Positions 20,569 through 26,708 of a stretch of DNA of 64,000 nucleotides are shown piece after piece. Each line of letters opens with the position of its first letter. The stretch's first letter is position 1. The DNA comes from Angustibacter luteus. Lineage in GTDB: Bacteria; Actinomycetota; Actinomycetes; Actinomycetales; Angustibacteraceae. Under the pieces are notes generated by a model. It did no database searches. It had not been told where the DNA came from and worked only from the letters and a program-made list of their open reading frames with translations. The translations under genes and the position numbers were made by a program. The DNA is taken from contig NZ_BAABFP010000007.1 of assembly GCF_039541115.1 (NCBI RefSeq), forward strand, positions 212,290 through 276,289. Reading direction: 5' to 3'.

Positions 20569-21039
20569 GTGGCCAAGGAGTCGGGGCGCAAGCTCATCGC
20601 GAGCAACCGCAAGGCGCGGCACGACTACACGATCGAGGACGTCTTCGAGGCCGGCATCGTGCTGTCCGGCACCGAGGTGAAGTCGCTGCGCGCCGGACGC
20701 GCGTCGCTGGTCGACGGGTTCGTCAGCTTCTACGGGCACGAGGCGTGGCTCGAGGCCGTGCACATCGCCGAGTACGTGTCCGGTACCTGGACCAACCACC
20801 CCCCGCGCCGCCGACGCAAGCTGCTGCTGCACCGCGACGAGATCACCCGGCTCGAGCAGGCGGTGAACCAGAGCGGCCTGACCGTCGTCCCCCTGCAGCT
20901 GTACTTCCTGGACGGTCGGGCGAAGGTCGAGATCGCCCTCGCCCGGGGCAAGAAGAACTACGACAAGCGGCAGGCGCTGCGCGAGCGGCAGGACAACCGC
21001 GAGGCCGACCGCGCGATGTCCCGGCGCGAGTCGCAGTGA
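20569..21039 (+). CDS. smpB: SsrA-binding protein SmpB
   Basis: A 156-residue tmRNA partner that brings alanyl-tmRNA into the A site of stalled ribosomes. Family landmarks are [27 protein letters not shown], then [16 protein letters not shown] and the basic tail [23 protein letters not shown] that reaches the decoding centre. GTG 20569 follows AAGGAG at a good spacing. The tmRNA gene is about 11 kb downstream rather than adjacent. The stop overlaps the next gene's GTG as GTGA. Confidence 0.96.
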
Positions 21040-22916
21040 AGCGCCGCATCGGACGGCGCGTCGCAGGGCTCGCGGTCGTGGTGGCTGCCGCCGTCGGCGT
21101 CGGACTCGGGACGGCGGCTCCGGCCCTCGCCGCGGACACCGAGTCGATCCGCAGCTTCCAGGCCAAGGTCACCGTGGACGACAGCGGCGCCCTGCACATC
21201 ACCGAGACCATCGAGTACCAGTTCTCCGGCAGCGACCACCACGGCATCGAGCGCGACCTGACCACGATGCAGAGCGTGGACGGCAGCGACCAGGTGCGCG
21301 TGTACCCGGTGAGCGACGTCCGGGTCTCCAGCCCCAGCGGCGCGCCGGACGACGAGGAGACGCAGGATCTCGGGTCCACGACGCGGATCAGGATCGGCGA
21401 CCCGAACGAGACGGTCTCGGGCACCCAGACCTACGTCATCGCCTACACGGTGAAGGGTGCCTTCAACCGGTTCACCGAACCGCAGACCGCTGCCGACGGC
21501 ACCGTCACCGCGCCGCACGACGAGCTGTACTGGAACCTGACCGGCGACGAGTGGGAGGTGCCGATCGAGTCGGTTCAGGCCACCGTGACCGCGCCGCAGC
21601 CAGCCACGGCGGCGCAGTGCTTCCAAGGCGCGCGCGGGTCCACCGACACCTGCCCGGCGACCGCAGGCGCGACGTCGACGTTCAGGTCGACCGGTCTCCA
21701 GCCGCACCAGGGCATGTCGATCCTCCTGGCCTACCCGCTGAACACCGTCTCGGACGTCGCCCCGATCCTGCAGGACCCGCCGCGCGACGGCCTCGACCAG
21801 CTGCTCGACGTCTCGCCCTTCTCGATCGGCGGGGCCGTGCTGCTCTTCGGGCTGATCGCCGGGGGCATGTCGCTGCTGGTCCGGCGCCGGGGGCGGGACG
21901 CCGCCTACGTGGGCCTGACTCCCGGGCTCCTGCCGGTCAGCGGACAGCAGGTCGGCGAGCAGCCCGTCACCCGTCAACCCAAGGACGTCGCCGTCCAGTT
22001 CACCCCGCCCGCCGGGCTGCACCCCGGCCAGATCGGCACCCTGATGGACGAGGTCGCCAACCCGGTGGACGTCACGGCGACCATCATCGACCTCGCCGTG
22101 CGCGGGTTCCTGCGGATCGAGGAGATCACCAACGACAAGGGCACCAAGGTCAAGGACTGGCGGCTCATCGTGGTGCTGCCGGCGCCGGCCGAGCAGCTCG
22201 AGGCCTACGAGCTGGCGCTCATGCAGGCGCTGTTCAAGGGGCGCGACCAGGTGGAGCTCAAGGGCGAGCTGCGCAACACGTTCGCCAGCGACCTGAAGGC
22301 CACCCAGACCCGGCTGTACGACGACGTCACAGCGCGCGGCTGGTTCCGCGGCAACCCCGAGTCCGTGCGCGGCCTGTGGCGGATGCTGGGACTGGCCCTC
22401 ATGGGGCTCGGCTTCGTCGCGCTCTTCTTCGGTGGGCTCAGCTCGATCAACCTGCTCGTCCCCGCCGCGGGCGTGTTCGCCGGCGGGCTCGTCGTCCTGC
22501 TGATGGCCAAGCGGATGCCCGCCCGCACGGCCGAGGGCACCGCGGTGCTCACCCAGGCGCAGGGGTTCCGGCGGTACCTGGAGACCGCCGAGGCCGACCA
22601 GATCCGGTTCGAGGAGGGTCAGGACCTGTTCAGCCGGTACCTGCCCTACGCGATCATCTTCGGCGTCGCCGACCGCTGGGCCAAGGTCTTCGACGACCTG
22701 GCCAAGTCCGGCGCCGCCGTGAACGCCCCCACCTGGTACGTCGGCCACACCCCCACCTGGAGCTACTACTGGCTCGGCGCCAGCATGAGCAGCTTCGAGA
22801 CGACCTCGAACTCGAGCCTCGTCTCCACCCCGGCCTCGTCGGGGAGCAGTGGCTTCAGCGGCGGCGGCGGCTTCTCGGGCGGCGGCGGCGGAGGCGGTGG
22901 CGGCGGGTCCTGGTAG
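21036..22916 (+). CDS. DUF2207 family membrane protein
   Basis: A 626-residue protein with a signal peptide ([24 protein letters not shown]), an extracytoplasmic beta-rich DUF2207 domain of about 200 residues ([15 protein letters not shown]), a first membrane span near residue 265, a cytoplasmic domain and two further spans near residues 450-490. The C-terminus is a Ser/Gly tract ending in a run of glycines and SW, typical of the family. GTG 21036 overlaps the smpB stop, so the two are co-translated. Function is unknown. Its 3' side is the unusual hairpin array. Confidence 0.85.
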
Positions 22917-22921
22917 GGGTC

Positions 22922-23000
22922 GCGGAGGGTGTGCGGTCGGGGTGCCGCGGCTCTCGCAAGCTCGTTTGACGCCGCGGCACCCCGACCGCACACCCTTCGC
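22922..23000 (+). terminator. long hairpin H1 after DUF2207
   Basis: The 26-base arm at 22926-22951 is the exact reverse complement of 22971-22996, and four more outer positions pair if one G-T is allowed. The 19-base loop at 22952-22970 is TCTCGCAAGCTCGTTTGAC. There is no T tract, so it would be a structure-only actinobacterial terminator or an RNA 3'-end stabiliser. The same loop, in inverse orientation, is in the hairpin at 23231-23310. Confidence 0.7.
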
Positions 23001-23230
23001 TCGGTCTCGTCGTCCGCGGACGCCGACTTCGCTGCGCTCAGCGGCGAAGGGCACGCGCCTCGCAGAGCTCGGCCGGGCGCTTCCGCCACTCAGGCCGGAA
23101 TGTGCCGCCGGAAACCGGCCTGGGTCGCGGAAACCGGACTGAGCGGCGGAAGCGGGGTGCCATACCCACTCGACCCCGAGCCCTACAAGGTGAGCTGAGA
23201 GCGTCAGCTGACCAGGACGCTCGCGAAGCA

Positions 23231-23310
23231 GAGCGCGGACGCGGACACCCGAAGGGCGGCGTCAAACGAGCTTGCGAGAGCCGCCCGTAGCGGTGTCTGC
23301 GTCCGCGCTC
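23231..23310 (-). terminator. long hairpin H5 after pyruvate carboxylase
   Basis: The outer stem pairs 23231-23249 (GAGCGCGGACGCGGACACC) with 23292-23310, with one G-T wobble. After a small internal loop, the inner stem GGGCGGC/GCCGCCC (23254-23260, 23280-23286) closes the loop at 23261-23279. Read on the minus strand, the direction of pyc transcription, that loop is TCTCGCAAGCTCGTTTGAC, identical to the loop of the hairpin after DUF2207, although the stems are unrelated. Confidence 0.7.
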
Positions 23311-23327
23311 GGCACCACAGACGAGAC

Positions 23328-26300
23328 CTAGGAGATGACGACCAGCAGGTCGCCGCCCTCCACCTGCTGCTGCGAACCGATCGCCAAGCGCTCGACGGTC
23401 CCGCTGACGGGCGTCGTGATCGAGGCCTCCATCTTCATGGCCTCGATGGTCGCCACGGTCGCGCCGGCCTCGACGGTGGCCCCCTGCTCGACGGCCAGCG
23501 ACACCACGCCGGCGAACGGCGCCGCGACGTGCCCGGACTTCGCCGGGTCGGCCTTCTCAGCGGCCCGGACGTCGACGTCCGCGCTCTCGTCCAGGGTGAG
23601 CACCGGGCGCAGCTGCCCGTTCAACGTCGTCATGACGGTGCGCATCCCGCGCTCGTCGACCTCGCTGACCGACTGGACGCCGACCAGCAGTCGCTTGCCG
23701 GGCTCGATCTCGACCTCGACCTCCGCGCCCGGCCGCAGCCCGTGCAGGAACTGCGCGGTGGGCAGCACCGACAGGTCGCTGTAGGTGTCCCGGGACTGCG
23801 CGAACTCCTTCGTCGGCCCGGGGAACAGCAGCCGGTTGAGCGTGGCCCGACGGTCCGCGGCCAGCCCCTCGACGTCCGCCTCGTCCAGCTCGGCGACCGC
23901 CGGCTTGGACCGGCTGCGACCCGCCAAGGCCTTGCTGCGGAAGGGTTCCGGCCAACCGCCGGGCGGGTCGCCCAGCTCGCCCTGCAGGAAGCCGATCACC
24001 GAGTCGGGGATGTCGTGCGCACCCGGGTCGGCCTCGAAGTCGGCCGGGTCGACGCCCCGGCCCACCAGTGCCAGCGCGAGGTCGCCGACCACCTTGCTGG
24101 ACGGCGTGACCTTGACGATGTTGCCGAGCATCCGGTTCGCGGCCGCGTAGGTGTCCTCGATCGCCTCGAACTTCTGGCCGAGGCCGAGCGCGATGGCCTG
24201 CTGGCGAAGGTTGGACAGCTGCCCGCCGGGGATCTCGTGGGTGTAGACGCGACCGGTCGGCGCCGACAGCCCGGACTCGAAGGGCGCGTACAGCCGGCGC
24301 ACCGCCTCCCAGTACGGCTCCAGGTCGCAGACCGTGCGCAGGTCGAGGCCGGTGGCCCGCTCGGTGCCGTCGGTCGCCGCCACCAGCGCCGACATCGGCA
24401 CCTGGCTGGTGGTGCCCGCCATCGGCGCGCTGGCGACGTCCACCGCGTCCACCCCGGCGTCGATCGCGGCCAGCAGCGTGGCGAGCTGCCCGCCCGCCGT
24501 GTCGTGGGTGTGCAGGTGCACCGGCAGGTCGAACCGCTCGCGCAGCGCCGTGACCAGCACTCGTGCGGCCGGCGCGCGCAGCAGCCCGGCCATGTCCTTG
24601 ATCGCCAGCACGTGTGCGCCGGCCCCGACGATGCGCTCGGCCAGCGCCAGGTAGTAGTCGAGCGTGTACAGCGTCTCGGCCGGGTCGGACAGGTTGCCGG
24701 TGTAGCAGAGGGCGACCTCGGCGACCGCCGTCCCGGTGCGCCGGACGGCCTCGATGGCCGGACGCATCTGCTCCACGTCGTTCAGCGCGTCGAAGACCCG
24801 GAACACGTCGATGCCGGTGCGCGCCGCCTCCTCGACGAACGCGTCCGTGACCTCGACCGGGTACGGCGTGTAGCCGACCGTGTTGCGCCCGCGCAGCAGC
24901 ATCTGCAGGCACAGGTTGGGCATCGCCTCACGCAGCGCCGCCAGCCGGTCCCACGGGTCCTCGGACAGGAACCGCAGGGCCACGTCGTACGTCGCGCCGC
25001 CCCAGGCCTCCACGCTCCACAGCTGCGGGGTCAGCCGGGCCACCGGGGCGGCCGCGGCCAGCAGGTCGCGGGTGCGGACCCGGGTGGCGAGCAGCGACTG
25101 GTGGGCGTCCCGGAACGTCGTGTCGGTGACCGCGACCGCGGTCTGCTCGCGCAGCGCCGCAGCGAACTGCTCCGGCCCGACCCGGACCAGCAGGTCCCGC
25201 GCGCCGGGCGGTGCCGCGGCGTCGACGTCCACGGCCGGCAGCTTGCTGGCCGGGTCGGCCAGGTCGTGACCGGGGCCGTGCGGCTGGTTCACCGTCATGT
25301 GCGCCAGGTAGGTCAGCAGCTTGGTGCCGCGGTCGGCCGGCACCCGAGGGCTCAGCAGCTGCGGGCGCTCATCGATGAAGGACGTCGAGAGCCGTCCCGC
25401 GACGAAGTCCGGCTGGTCGATCAGGCTCTGCAGGAACGGGATGTTGGTGGACACGCCACGGATCCGGAACTCCGACAGGGCGCGGCGGGCCCGGCGGACC
25501 GCCGTCGGGAAGTCGTGCCCGCGACAGGTCAGCTTGACCAGCATCGAGTCGAAGTGCGCGCCGATCTCGGCGCCGACGAAGACCGTGCCGCCGTCCAGCC
25601 GCACTCCCGCACCGCCCGCCGAGCGGTACGTGGTGATGGTGCCGGTGTCGGGGCGGAACCCGTTCGAGGGGTCCTCGGTGGTGATCCGGCACTGCAGCGC
25701 AGCGCCGTTGACCCGGATCGTCGCCTGCGCCAGGCCCAGGTCGTCGAGCGTCTCGCCGCTGGCGATCCGCATCTGGGACTGCACCAGGTCGATGTCGGTG
25801 ACCTCCTCGGTCACCGTGTGCTCGACCTGGATGCGCGGGTTCATCTCGATGAAGACGTACGAACCGTCCGGGTCGAGCAGGAACTCCACGGTGCCGGCGT
25901 TGGCGTACCCGATCTGCCGGGCGAAGGCGACGGCGTGCGCGCACATCGACTCGCGGATCTCGGCCGGCAGGTTCGGCGCCGGGGCGATCTCGACGACCTT
26001 CTGGTGCCGCCGCTGCACCGAGCAGTCCCGCTCGAACAGGTGGACGACGTTGCCGGCCCCGTCGGCCAGCACCTGCACCTCGATGTGCCGCGGCGAGACC
26101 ACGGCCTTCTCCAGGAACACCGTGGCGTCGCCGAAGGCGCTCTCCGCCTCGCGCATGGCGGCCTCGATGGACTCGCGCAGGTCGGCCGGGTCCTCGACCC
26201 GACGCATCCCGCGTCCCCCGCCGCCGGCCACGGCCTTCACGAACAGCGGGAAGCCGACGTCGTCCGCGGCGTCCAGCAGCGTCTGGACGTCGGTGCTCGG

Positions 26301-26708
26301 CGGCGCGCTGCCCAGCACCGGCAGCCCGGCCTCGCGGGCTGCGGTGATCGCGCGGGCCTTGTTGCCGGTGAGCTCCAGGACCGACGCCGGCGGCCCGATG
26401 AAGGTGATCCCGGCCGCCGCGCAGGCCTCGGCGAGCTGCGGGTTCTCGGACAGGAAGCCGTAGCCGGGGTAGACCGCGTCCGCACCCGACTCGCGAGCCA
26501 CCCGGACGATCTCGGCAATGTCCAGGTAGGCGCGCACCGGGTGCCCGGGCTCACCGATCCGGTACGCCTCGTCCGCCTTCGAGCGGTGCTCGCTGCGCCG
26601 GTCCTCGTGGGCGAAGACCGCGACGGTCTGCGCGCCCAGCTCGGTCGCGGCGCGGAAGGCGCGGACGGCGATCTCGCCACGGTTGGCGACCAGGACCTTT
26701 CGGAACAC
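23328..26708 (-). CDS. pyc: pyruvate carboxylase
   Basis: A 1,126-residue anaplerotic enzyme making oxaloacetate from pyruvate, bicarbonate and ATP. Biotin carboxylase is about residues 1-460 (KVLVANRGEIAVRAFRA; ATP loop VAGGGGRGMRRV; IEMNPRIQVEHTVTEEVT). The carboxyltransferase domain starts near 530 (TDTTFRDAHQSLLATRVRT). The biotinyl domain is at the end with EAMKMEAS, Lys 1092. All domains are intact and length is typical. GTG 26708 follows GGAGG on its strand. It is convergent with DUF2207 across the hairpin array. Confidence 0.97.
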   Translation of the reverse strand: MFRKVLVANRGEIAVRAFRAATELGAQTVAVFAHEDRRSEHRSKADEAYRIGEPGHPVRAYLDIAEIVRVARESGADAVYPGYGFLSENPQLAEACAAAGITFIGPPASVLELTGNKARAITAAREAGLPVLGSAPPSTDVQTLLDAADDVGFPLFVKAVAGGGGRGMRRVEDPADLRESIEAAMREAESAFGDATVFLEKAVVSPRHIEVQVLADGAGNVVHLFERDCSVQRRHQKVVEIAPAPNLPAEIRESMCAHAVAFARQIGYANAGTVEFLLDPDGSYVFIEMNPRIQVEHTVTEEVTDIDLVQSQMRIASGETLDDLGLAQATIRVNGAALQCRITTEDPSNGFRPDTGTITTYRSAGGAGVRLDGGTVFVGAEIGAHFDSMLVKLTCRGHDFPTAVRRARRALSEFRIRGVSTNIPFLQSLIDQPDFVAGRLSTSFIDERPQLLSPRVPADRGTKLLTYLAHMTVNQPHGPGHDLADPASKLPAVDVDAAAPPGARDLLVRVGPEQFAAALREQTAVAVTDTTFRDAHQSLLATRVRTRDLLAAAAPVARLTPQLWSVEAWGGATYDVALRFLSEDPWDRLAALREAMPNLCLQMLLRGRNTVGYTPYPVEVTDAFVEEAARTGIDVFRVFDALNDVEQMRPAIEAVRRTGTAVAEVALCYTGNLSDPAETLYTLDYYLALAERIVGAGAHVLAIKDMAGLLRAPAARVLVTALRERFDLPVHLHTHDTAGGQLATLLAAIDAGVDAVDVASAPMAGTTSQVPMSALVAATDGTERATGLDLRTVCDLEPYWEAVRRLYAPFESGLSAPTGRVYTHEIPGGQLSNLRQQAIALGLGQKFEAIEDTYAAANRMLGNIVKVTPSSKVVGDLALALVGRGVDPADFEADPGAHDIPDSVIGFLQGELGDPPGGWPEPFRSKALAGRSRSKPAVAELDEADVEGLAADRRATLNRLLFPGPTKEFAQSRDTYSDLSVLPTAQFLHGLRPGAEVEVEIEPGKRLLVGVQSVSEVDERGMRTVMTTLNGQLRPVLTLDESADVDVRAAEKADPAKSGHVAAPFAGVVSLAVEQGATVEAGATVATIEAMKMEASITTPVSGTVERLAIGSQQQVEGGDLLVVIS

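Follow-up and report, generated by a model that had tools for sequence, protein, structure and literature searches.

The window analysed here is a 64,000-nt stretch of the Angustibacter luteus genome in which the gene for a DUF2207 membrane protein (20745..22916, plus strand; Pfam PF09972 and PF20990) faces the pyruvate carboxylase gene pyc (23328..26708, minus strand; identified by Pfam). Both genes were taken from the open reading frame list, and the true start of the DUF2207 frame is probably later than listed. Each gene is followed by a long hairpin. The hairpin 3' of DUF2207 (22922..23000, plus strand) has 30-nt arms with one mismatch (22922-22951 and 22971-23000) and a 19-nt apical loop, TCTCGCAAGCTCGTTTGAC, at 22952..22970. 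The hairpin 3' of pyc (23231..23310, minus strand), whose arms were read off the sequence at about 23231-23260 and 23280-23310, carries the identical 19-mer as its apical loop at 23261..23279, which on the plus strand is the exact reverse complement. As the sequence-only reading had stated, the same loop lies in sense at both gene 3' ends, 35 nt past the DUF2207 stop and 48 nt past the pyc stop. The folds of the two hairpins were unlike: pairing was almost perfect at DUF2207, and at pyc a 7-bp upper stem was separated from the lower stem by an asymmetric internal loop. A fold of 22917-23330 showed several hairpins, and the largest of those between the two long ones (approximately 23079-23134) belongs to another dispersed palindrome family. 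This second family consists of TTCCGCC(A/G)CTCAGGCCGG and its reverse complement, often with several units adjoining, and occurred at six places in 366,741 bases sampled, including 23076-23155 of the window; the other sites were L041:6330, L042:7435, L045:8506, and L051:916 and 6507.

The 19-mer had seven exact matches in the whole genome (4,159,170 bases), and all seven were the tips of long hairpins when folded. Nothing else lay within two mismatches, the nearest other ungapped site being a single one with three mismatches, and the reversed pattern gave no matches at up to three mismatches in the same 4.16 Mb. With seven copies against none for the reversed control, the recurrence of the 19-mer exceeds chance. 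At up to one or two mismatches it was found in its own genome only, that is, in one of two genomes of the genus and one of four of the family, two of the family genomes searched being 62% and 73% complete. There were no stretches with the 19-mer in a public species contig set, which may omit records very near the genome of the window, no exact matches in viral contigs, and no match to the loop in the plasmids searched. The tip motif, in several spellings, was not found in the literature searched. As regards relatives, for which a search with the 19-mer had been proposed, the exact sequence was absent from the other genomes searched and variants of it were present in the other species of the genus.

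The suggestion that the loop marks a genomic repeat family was borne out by the seven exact 19-mers and by a wider family of 12 hairpins in this genome, with two secure members in G001, the other genome of the genus compared. The G001 hairpin at pdxS has the variant loop TGTCGCAAGCTCCTTCAC, and a search with this sequence at up to two mismatches in five genomes added two hairpins in this genome and one in G001; a fifth match, in G019, was rejected as no hairpin was found there. A covariance model, R1, built from 11 members (alignment A1), brought the count here up by three: one hairpin follows atpD (C2:302689) and two lie at a pair of M7 peptidase genes (C5:463654 and C5:464558). In a sample of ~356 kb of this genome, window included, and 17 kb of G001 loci, the eight known members present scored at least 69.2 bits with R1 and everything else at most 21.5 bits; the DUF2207 hairpin matched over 22930-22992 (74.1 bits) and the pyc hairpin over 23240-23301 (69.2 bits). 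The M7 peptidase copies lay outside this sample and scored 53–54 bits. In the whole-genome model searches, 137 candidates were scored per genome in the search that found the M7 copies and 13 in a search of 396 genomes, so weak members may be missed. A third match in G001 (C1:169982; E 0.029, 32.4 bits, loop TGCTCGCCAGGGCTCGCGTCAC) is a candidate member only; judged by eye, it lies inside a partly masked DUF222/HNH-type frame (L095:1232-2383), and it was left out of the 14-member alignment A4 and the model R2. One of the copies in this genome, at an HTTM-like gene, also adjoins a DUF222/HNH gene.

The 14 aligned members have a common plan: a variable lower stem, a small internal loop, a 7-bp covarying upper stem, and an apical loop of 18–21 nt. 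The model gives the lower stem 12 bp, but in most members it extends further, and total arms are 28–37 nt in 12 of the 14 as drawn, mismatches included. The internal loop is 3x3, typically CC-TNC-GG opposite CC-TNC-GG, and is closed or nearly so in the pdxS, DUF2207 and rlmB hairpins, while the upper stem is 99% paired. The core of the apical loop is UCGCAAGCUC, or UCGCCAGCUC at an MFS gene, and the bases before UCGC and after GCUC could pair in every member (C-G in ten, G-C in four). Across the 14 members, 93.6% of cells were paired; shuffling lowered this to 60.0%, and sliding gave no more than 47.7%. Eighteen of the 19 modelled pairs changed on both sides, possibly an overcount, as the stems of some members may have no common ancestor. 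The element therefore covaries beyond the controls, with the structure itself drawn from these sequences; for that reason, and since some stems are perhaps non-homologous, the figures demonstrate pairing rather than a number of compensations. G-U pairs made up three of ~249 cells in the 19 modelled pairs. In the wider fold with 50-nt flanks each hairpin had 0–7 of them, a total of 48 among the 533 pairs of the 14 members. Being few in the modelled pairs but not in the wider fold, they argue only weakly for a stem functional on both strands.

On sequence comparison, tip and stem appear uncoupled, the same tip standing on stems that match at chance and near-identical stems carrying different tips. 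At stem positions 5-22 below the loop, the mean agreement of shuffled arms was 5.84 of 18 (sd 1.88; 99th percentile, 10). The DUF2207 stem agreed with those of the other 13 members at 3–7 of these 18 positions, and the rlmB stem at 2–7, which is the level of chance, and both carry the exact tip in common with five other members. Many of the remaining pairs of stems reached 10 of 18 or more, and the MFS and atpD stems agreed at 17 of 18 (or 21 of 22 stem positions) with tips that differ. For the lower stem (positions 13-30; shuffled mean 6.07, 99th percentile 11 of 18), five of 91 pairs reached 11 of 18, namely MFS/atpD (14), pyc/G001 atpD (12), pdxS/snap1 (11), MFS/G001 atpD (11), and atpD/G001 atpD (11). 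The stems had been described from sequence alone as unrelated. This holds for the lower stems, which are close to chance for most pairs of members, but not for the pairs nearest the loop and the internal loop, which are common to most members. The claim of a conserved tip on a variable stem stood, with the tip changing less than the lower stem in the second species too. The seven identical tips show no changes in 133 positions. Since tips vary at several positions within the family, these seven suggest a strict sub-class or recent copying.

Position mainly at gene 3' ends was likewise confirmed, with ten of the 12 hairpins in sense at a gene end. Besides DUF2207 and pyc, the genes for DUF4032 and a SpoU methyltransferase (called rlmB) face each other, each with a hairpin in sense. 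Single sense copies follow pdxS (facing kynU), an rpfB-like gene (before an rRNA adenine dimethylase gene), an MFS gene (facing DUF3145), atpD, and an M7 peptidase gene (facing gcvP). Another sense copy lies at the end of the HTTM-like gene, which scores below the Pfam cut-off and faces the DUF222/HNH gene; there the stop codon falls inside the conserved loop, so the 5' stem arm is coding (L001:1473-1547). Of the two others, one lies between the divergent EamA gene and a gene without a Pfam match, at neither gene's 3' end, and one is antisense, between two M7 peptidase genes. A lone hairpin between convergent genes is in sense to one of them whichever way round it lies; where orientation could be judged, at tandem genes and the two opposed pairs, six were in sense and one antisense, which is not decisive. 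The flanking genes had no obvious common function by Pfam. At atpD, no ORF of the size of atpC follows directly in either species (L094 and L083), the gap in L094 being 183 nt and containing the hairpin; a 205–206-aa ORF, without a Pfam match in L094, lies downstream of atpD in both species, in G001 after a further ORF.

The two secure hairpins of G001 follow pdxS and atpD, the same genes as here, and have variant tips. At other loci G001 differs. Hairpins of a different type follow its DUF2207 gene (4-nt loop) and its gcvP (3-nt loop), a small hairpin with a 3-nt loop lies near the end of rlmB, and no hairpin was found directly after the MFS or rpfB genes. The gap between EamA and its divergent neighbour is 55 nt without a hairpin in G001 versus 128 nt here (GTG starts assumed), the latter being 83 nt of hairpin plus 45 nt as split by eye. 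Gene content in the rlmB/DUF4032 and pyc neighbourhoods is unlike between the two genomes.

The hairpins share one trait of intrinsic terminators, a GC-rich hairpin at a gene 3' end, which ten of 12 form in sense after a stop codon. A T-rich tract after the stem was found in none of the 14 members, in which the 8 nt following the stem held at most four T (three, by eye, at pyc and snapAS). A terminator scan of 22800-23400 gave no sites; it considered only loops of 3–8 nt and is blind to these hairpins. The earlier suggestion of paired terminators is weakened, because there is no T-tract and one copy lies between divergent genes. No Rfam family matched at gathering score in nine loci holding 11 of the 14 members (all but the atpD copy of this genome and the two M7 peptidase copies), and six matches were all far below it. 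A reading of the loop as peptide (SRKLV stop) was rejected because the frame differs between members, with stop-to-loop distances of 35, 37, 38, 40 and 48. GTAG occurs 5' of the hairpin at pdxS, DUF2207, DUF4032 and rlmB, where by eye its TAG is the stop codon.

Several known systems resemble the family in part. REP/BIME and other intergenic palindromic repeats are likewise dispersed intergenic palindromes, sometimes in opposed pairs and mostly after genes; they have a conserved stem, a 5' GTAG/GGAG tag and a RAYT transposase, whereas here the tip is fixed and the stem largely free. Structured RNAs of the Rfam and comparative-genomics type share covarying helices and conserved internal and apical loops, but this family has 12 copies in one genome and is secure in only two species. 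A paper on EcpR1, one of the alpha-rhizobial trans-sRNAs, reportedly uses the terms 'conserved loop' and 'variable stem'; these are free-standing sRNAs. Intrinsic (Rho-independent) terminators also place a GC-rich hairpin with a unique stem soon after the stop codon; the family differs in lacking a T-tract and in its conserved loop of 18–21 nt, the loops allowed by TransTermHP being 3–13 nt (PMC1852404). A repeated genomic sequence inside gene-end hairpins is also a trait of the DUS/USS uptake-signal terminators of Neisseria and Pasteurellaceae, in which, as that source describes them, complementary signal copies form the hairpin and signals generally occur at least 1,000 times (PMC1852404); here the repeat is the loop, with seven exact copies in a family of 12. 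A literature search for actinobacteria found nothing on intrinsic terminators with conserved loops, nor on REP/RAYT.

Together, these results suggest that the tip is either read by some component of the cell or copied between hairpins. We tentatively prefer, at somewhat less than an even chance, a genus-limited family of long 3'-end hairpins whose tip is recognised in trans. The hairpin would be transcribed as part of the mRNA 3' end, its stem may block exonucleases or polymerase, from both sides for convergent genes, and the tip and internal loop would be bound by a trans-acting factor. Because the lower stem would need only to pair, it could drift by template-switch repair or compensatory change with the tip held. 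Template switching can create and repair stems (PMC8794818); we infer that it applies to these hairpins. The tip-core complement TCGCAAGCTC occurred at 13 sites in the genome, 11 in the family and two in long open frames (11 sites for its reversed control), so no separate complementary RNA site was seen outside long open frames, and the reader of the tip would more likely be a protein than an RNA. The seven identical tips, the pairing beyond controls, the pdxS and atpD hairpins in both species and the ten of 12 sense positions argue for recognition in trans; the copy between divergent genes, the antisense copy and the lack of an obvious common function among the flanking genes argue against it, nor would recognition by itself call for seven tips that agree even where the rest of the family differs. 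A serious rival, which we consider plausible but on balance doubtful, is spread at the level of DNA, in which gene conversion transfers the tip alone, or a ~43-nt core comprising tip, upper stem and internal loop, between hairpins, or a small mobile palindrome of the REP/MITE type inserts, and the gene-end location reflects insertion preference or tolerance. The uncoupling of tip and stem at DUF2207, rlmB, and MFS versus atpD fits such spread, as do the hairpin-free EamA gap of G001 and the other kinds of hairpin, or none, at its DUF2207, gcvP, rlmB, MFS and rpfB loci. However, the stems of known palindromic repeats are conserved, unlike those here, conversion over ~20 nt is short for homologous recombination, and both species retain the pdxS and atpD copies.

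It seems unlikely that these are ordinary bidirectional 3'-end hairpins with a functionless tip, produced when a few hairpins were duplicated entire and template switching then quickly rewrote their stems, with the old tips left in place. Their placement behind stop codons and in the gaps of convergent genes, the partial stem similarity among most members and the capacity of template switching to make and repair stems (PMC8794818) agree with such an origin, yet an unselected tip should drift like the stem, and the seven tips are unchanged over lower stems close to chance; the missing T-tract also speaks against it. Least probable by far is the proposed kissing interaction, in which the complementary loops of the window would pair on a read-through RNA and co-regulate DUF2207 and pyc. 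The two loops are indeed perfectly complementary on one strand, and a second such pair exists at DUF4032/rlmB (C8:292,000-292,254). Nevertheless, kissing was not supported as a rule, opposed pairs with complementary loops in convergent genes occupying only two of ten intergenic places, and for eight of the 12 hairpins the nearest 400 nt hold no opposed copy; the M7 peptidase copies are opposed too, but ~0.9 kb apart and with loops differing by one base. Tips in the sense RNAs are identical or similar rather than complementary, and the interaction requires read-through of convergent genes. Returning to recognition in trans, a more specific and rather speculative form would make the ~20-nt tip a unit apart from the stem, exchanged between, or constant across, gene-end hairpins with unrelated stems, and read by a genus-specific factor that marks the 3' ends of scattered transcripts. 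The stem is the usual yardstick for gene-end hairpins; a fixed tip on a free stem would point either to a 3'-end recognition system or to tiny loops spreading without their stems. Both readings are directly testable at 12 sites in one genome, two of them in common with a sister species.

An order-wide model search of 396 genomes gave matches at E ≤ 0.05 in seven, two of which belong to the genus. Of the five others a single one is plausible, G314, with a hairpin between sdhB and the next gene (loop TCTCGCAAGCTCGTTCTAC; 42.3 bits and a per-genome E of 1.1e-4), suggestive only given the 396 genomes searched. Matches in G117, G274 and G161 had no tip anatomy, lay inside long open frames and were dropped. 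Six more genomes with model E of 0.15–0.93 were viewed and also dropped, G030 standing partly apart; G030, which belongs to another family of the order, has a hairpin (L088 centre, 26.3 bits) with CTCGCAAGCTCG at and beside the tip and the motif partly in the stem. A further 54 stretches, about the number expected by chance by our own estimate, gave no secure new member, and the best of them (L155; 41.1 bits, E 1.8e-5, tip chosen beforehand) was within a 329-codon open frame. Among the 30 loci of further tip matches that were examined, a stem score of at least 8 occurred only in the two genus members and two prmC cases. A near match of the tip in G052, G150 and the Actinomyces records L128 and L131, and with one additional difference in L115, sits in hairpins in G052, G150 and L128; it was dropped from the family because it is the coding start of prmC, after prfA (LDWSQAPLRLR, open frames). 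The prmC sequences in common suggest that Actinomyces belongs to the order. The start of prmC in some Actinomyces (L107/L165, L166 and L128) forms a strong hairpin, with a stem score of 18–20, around a conserved coding stretch.
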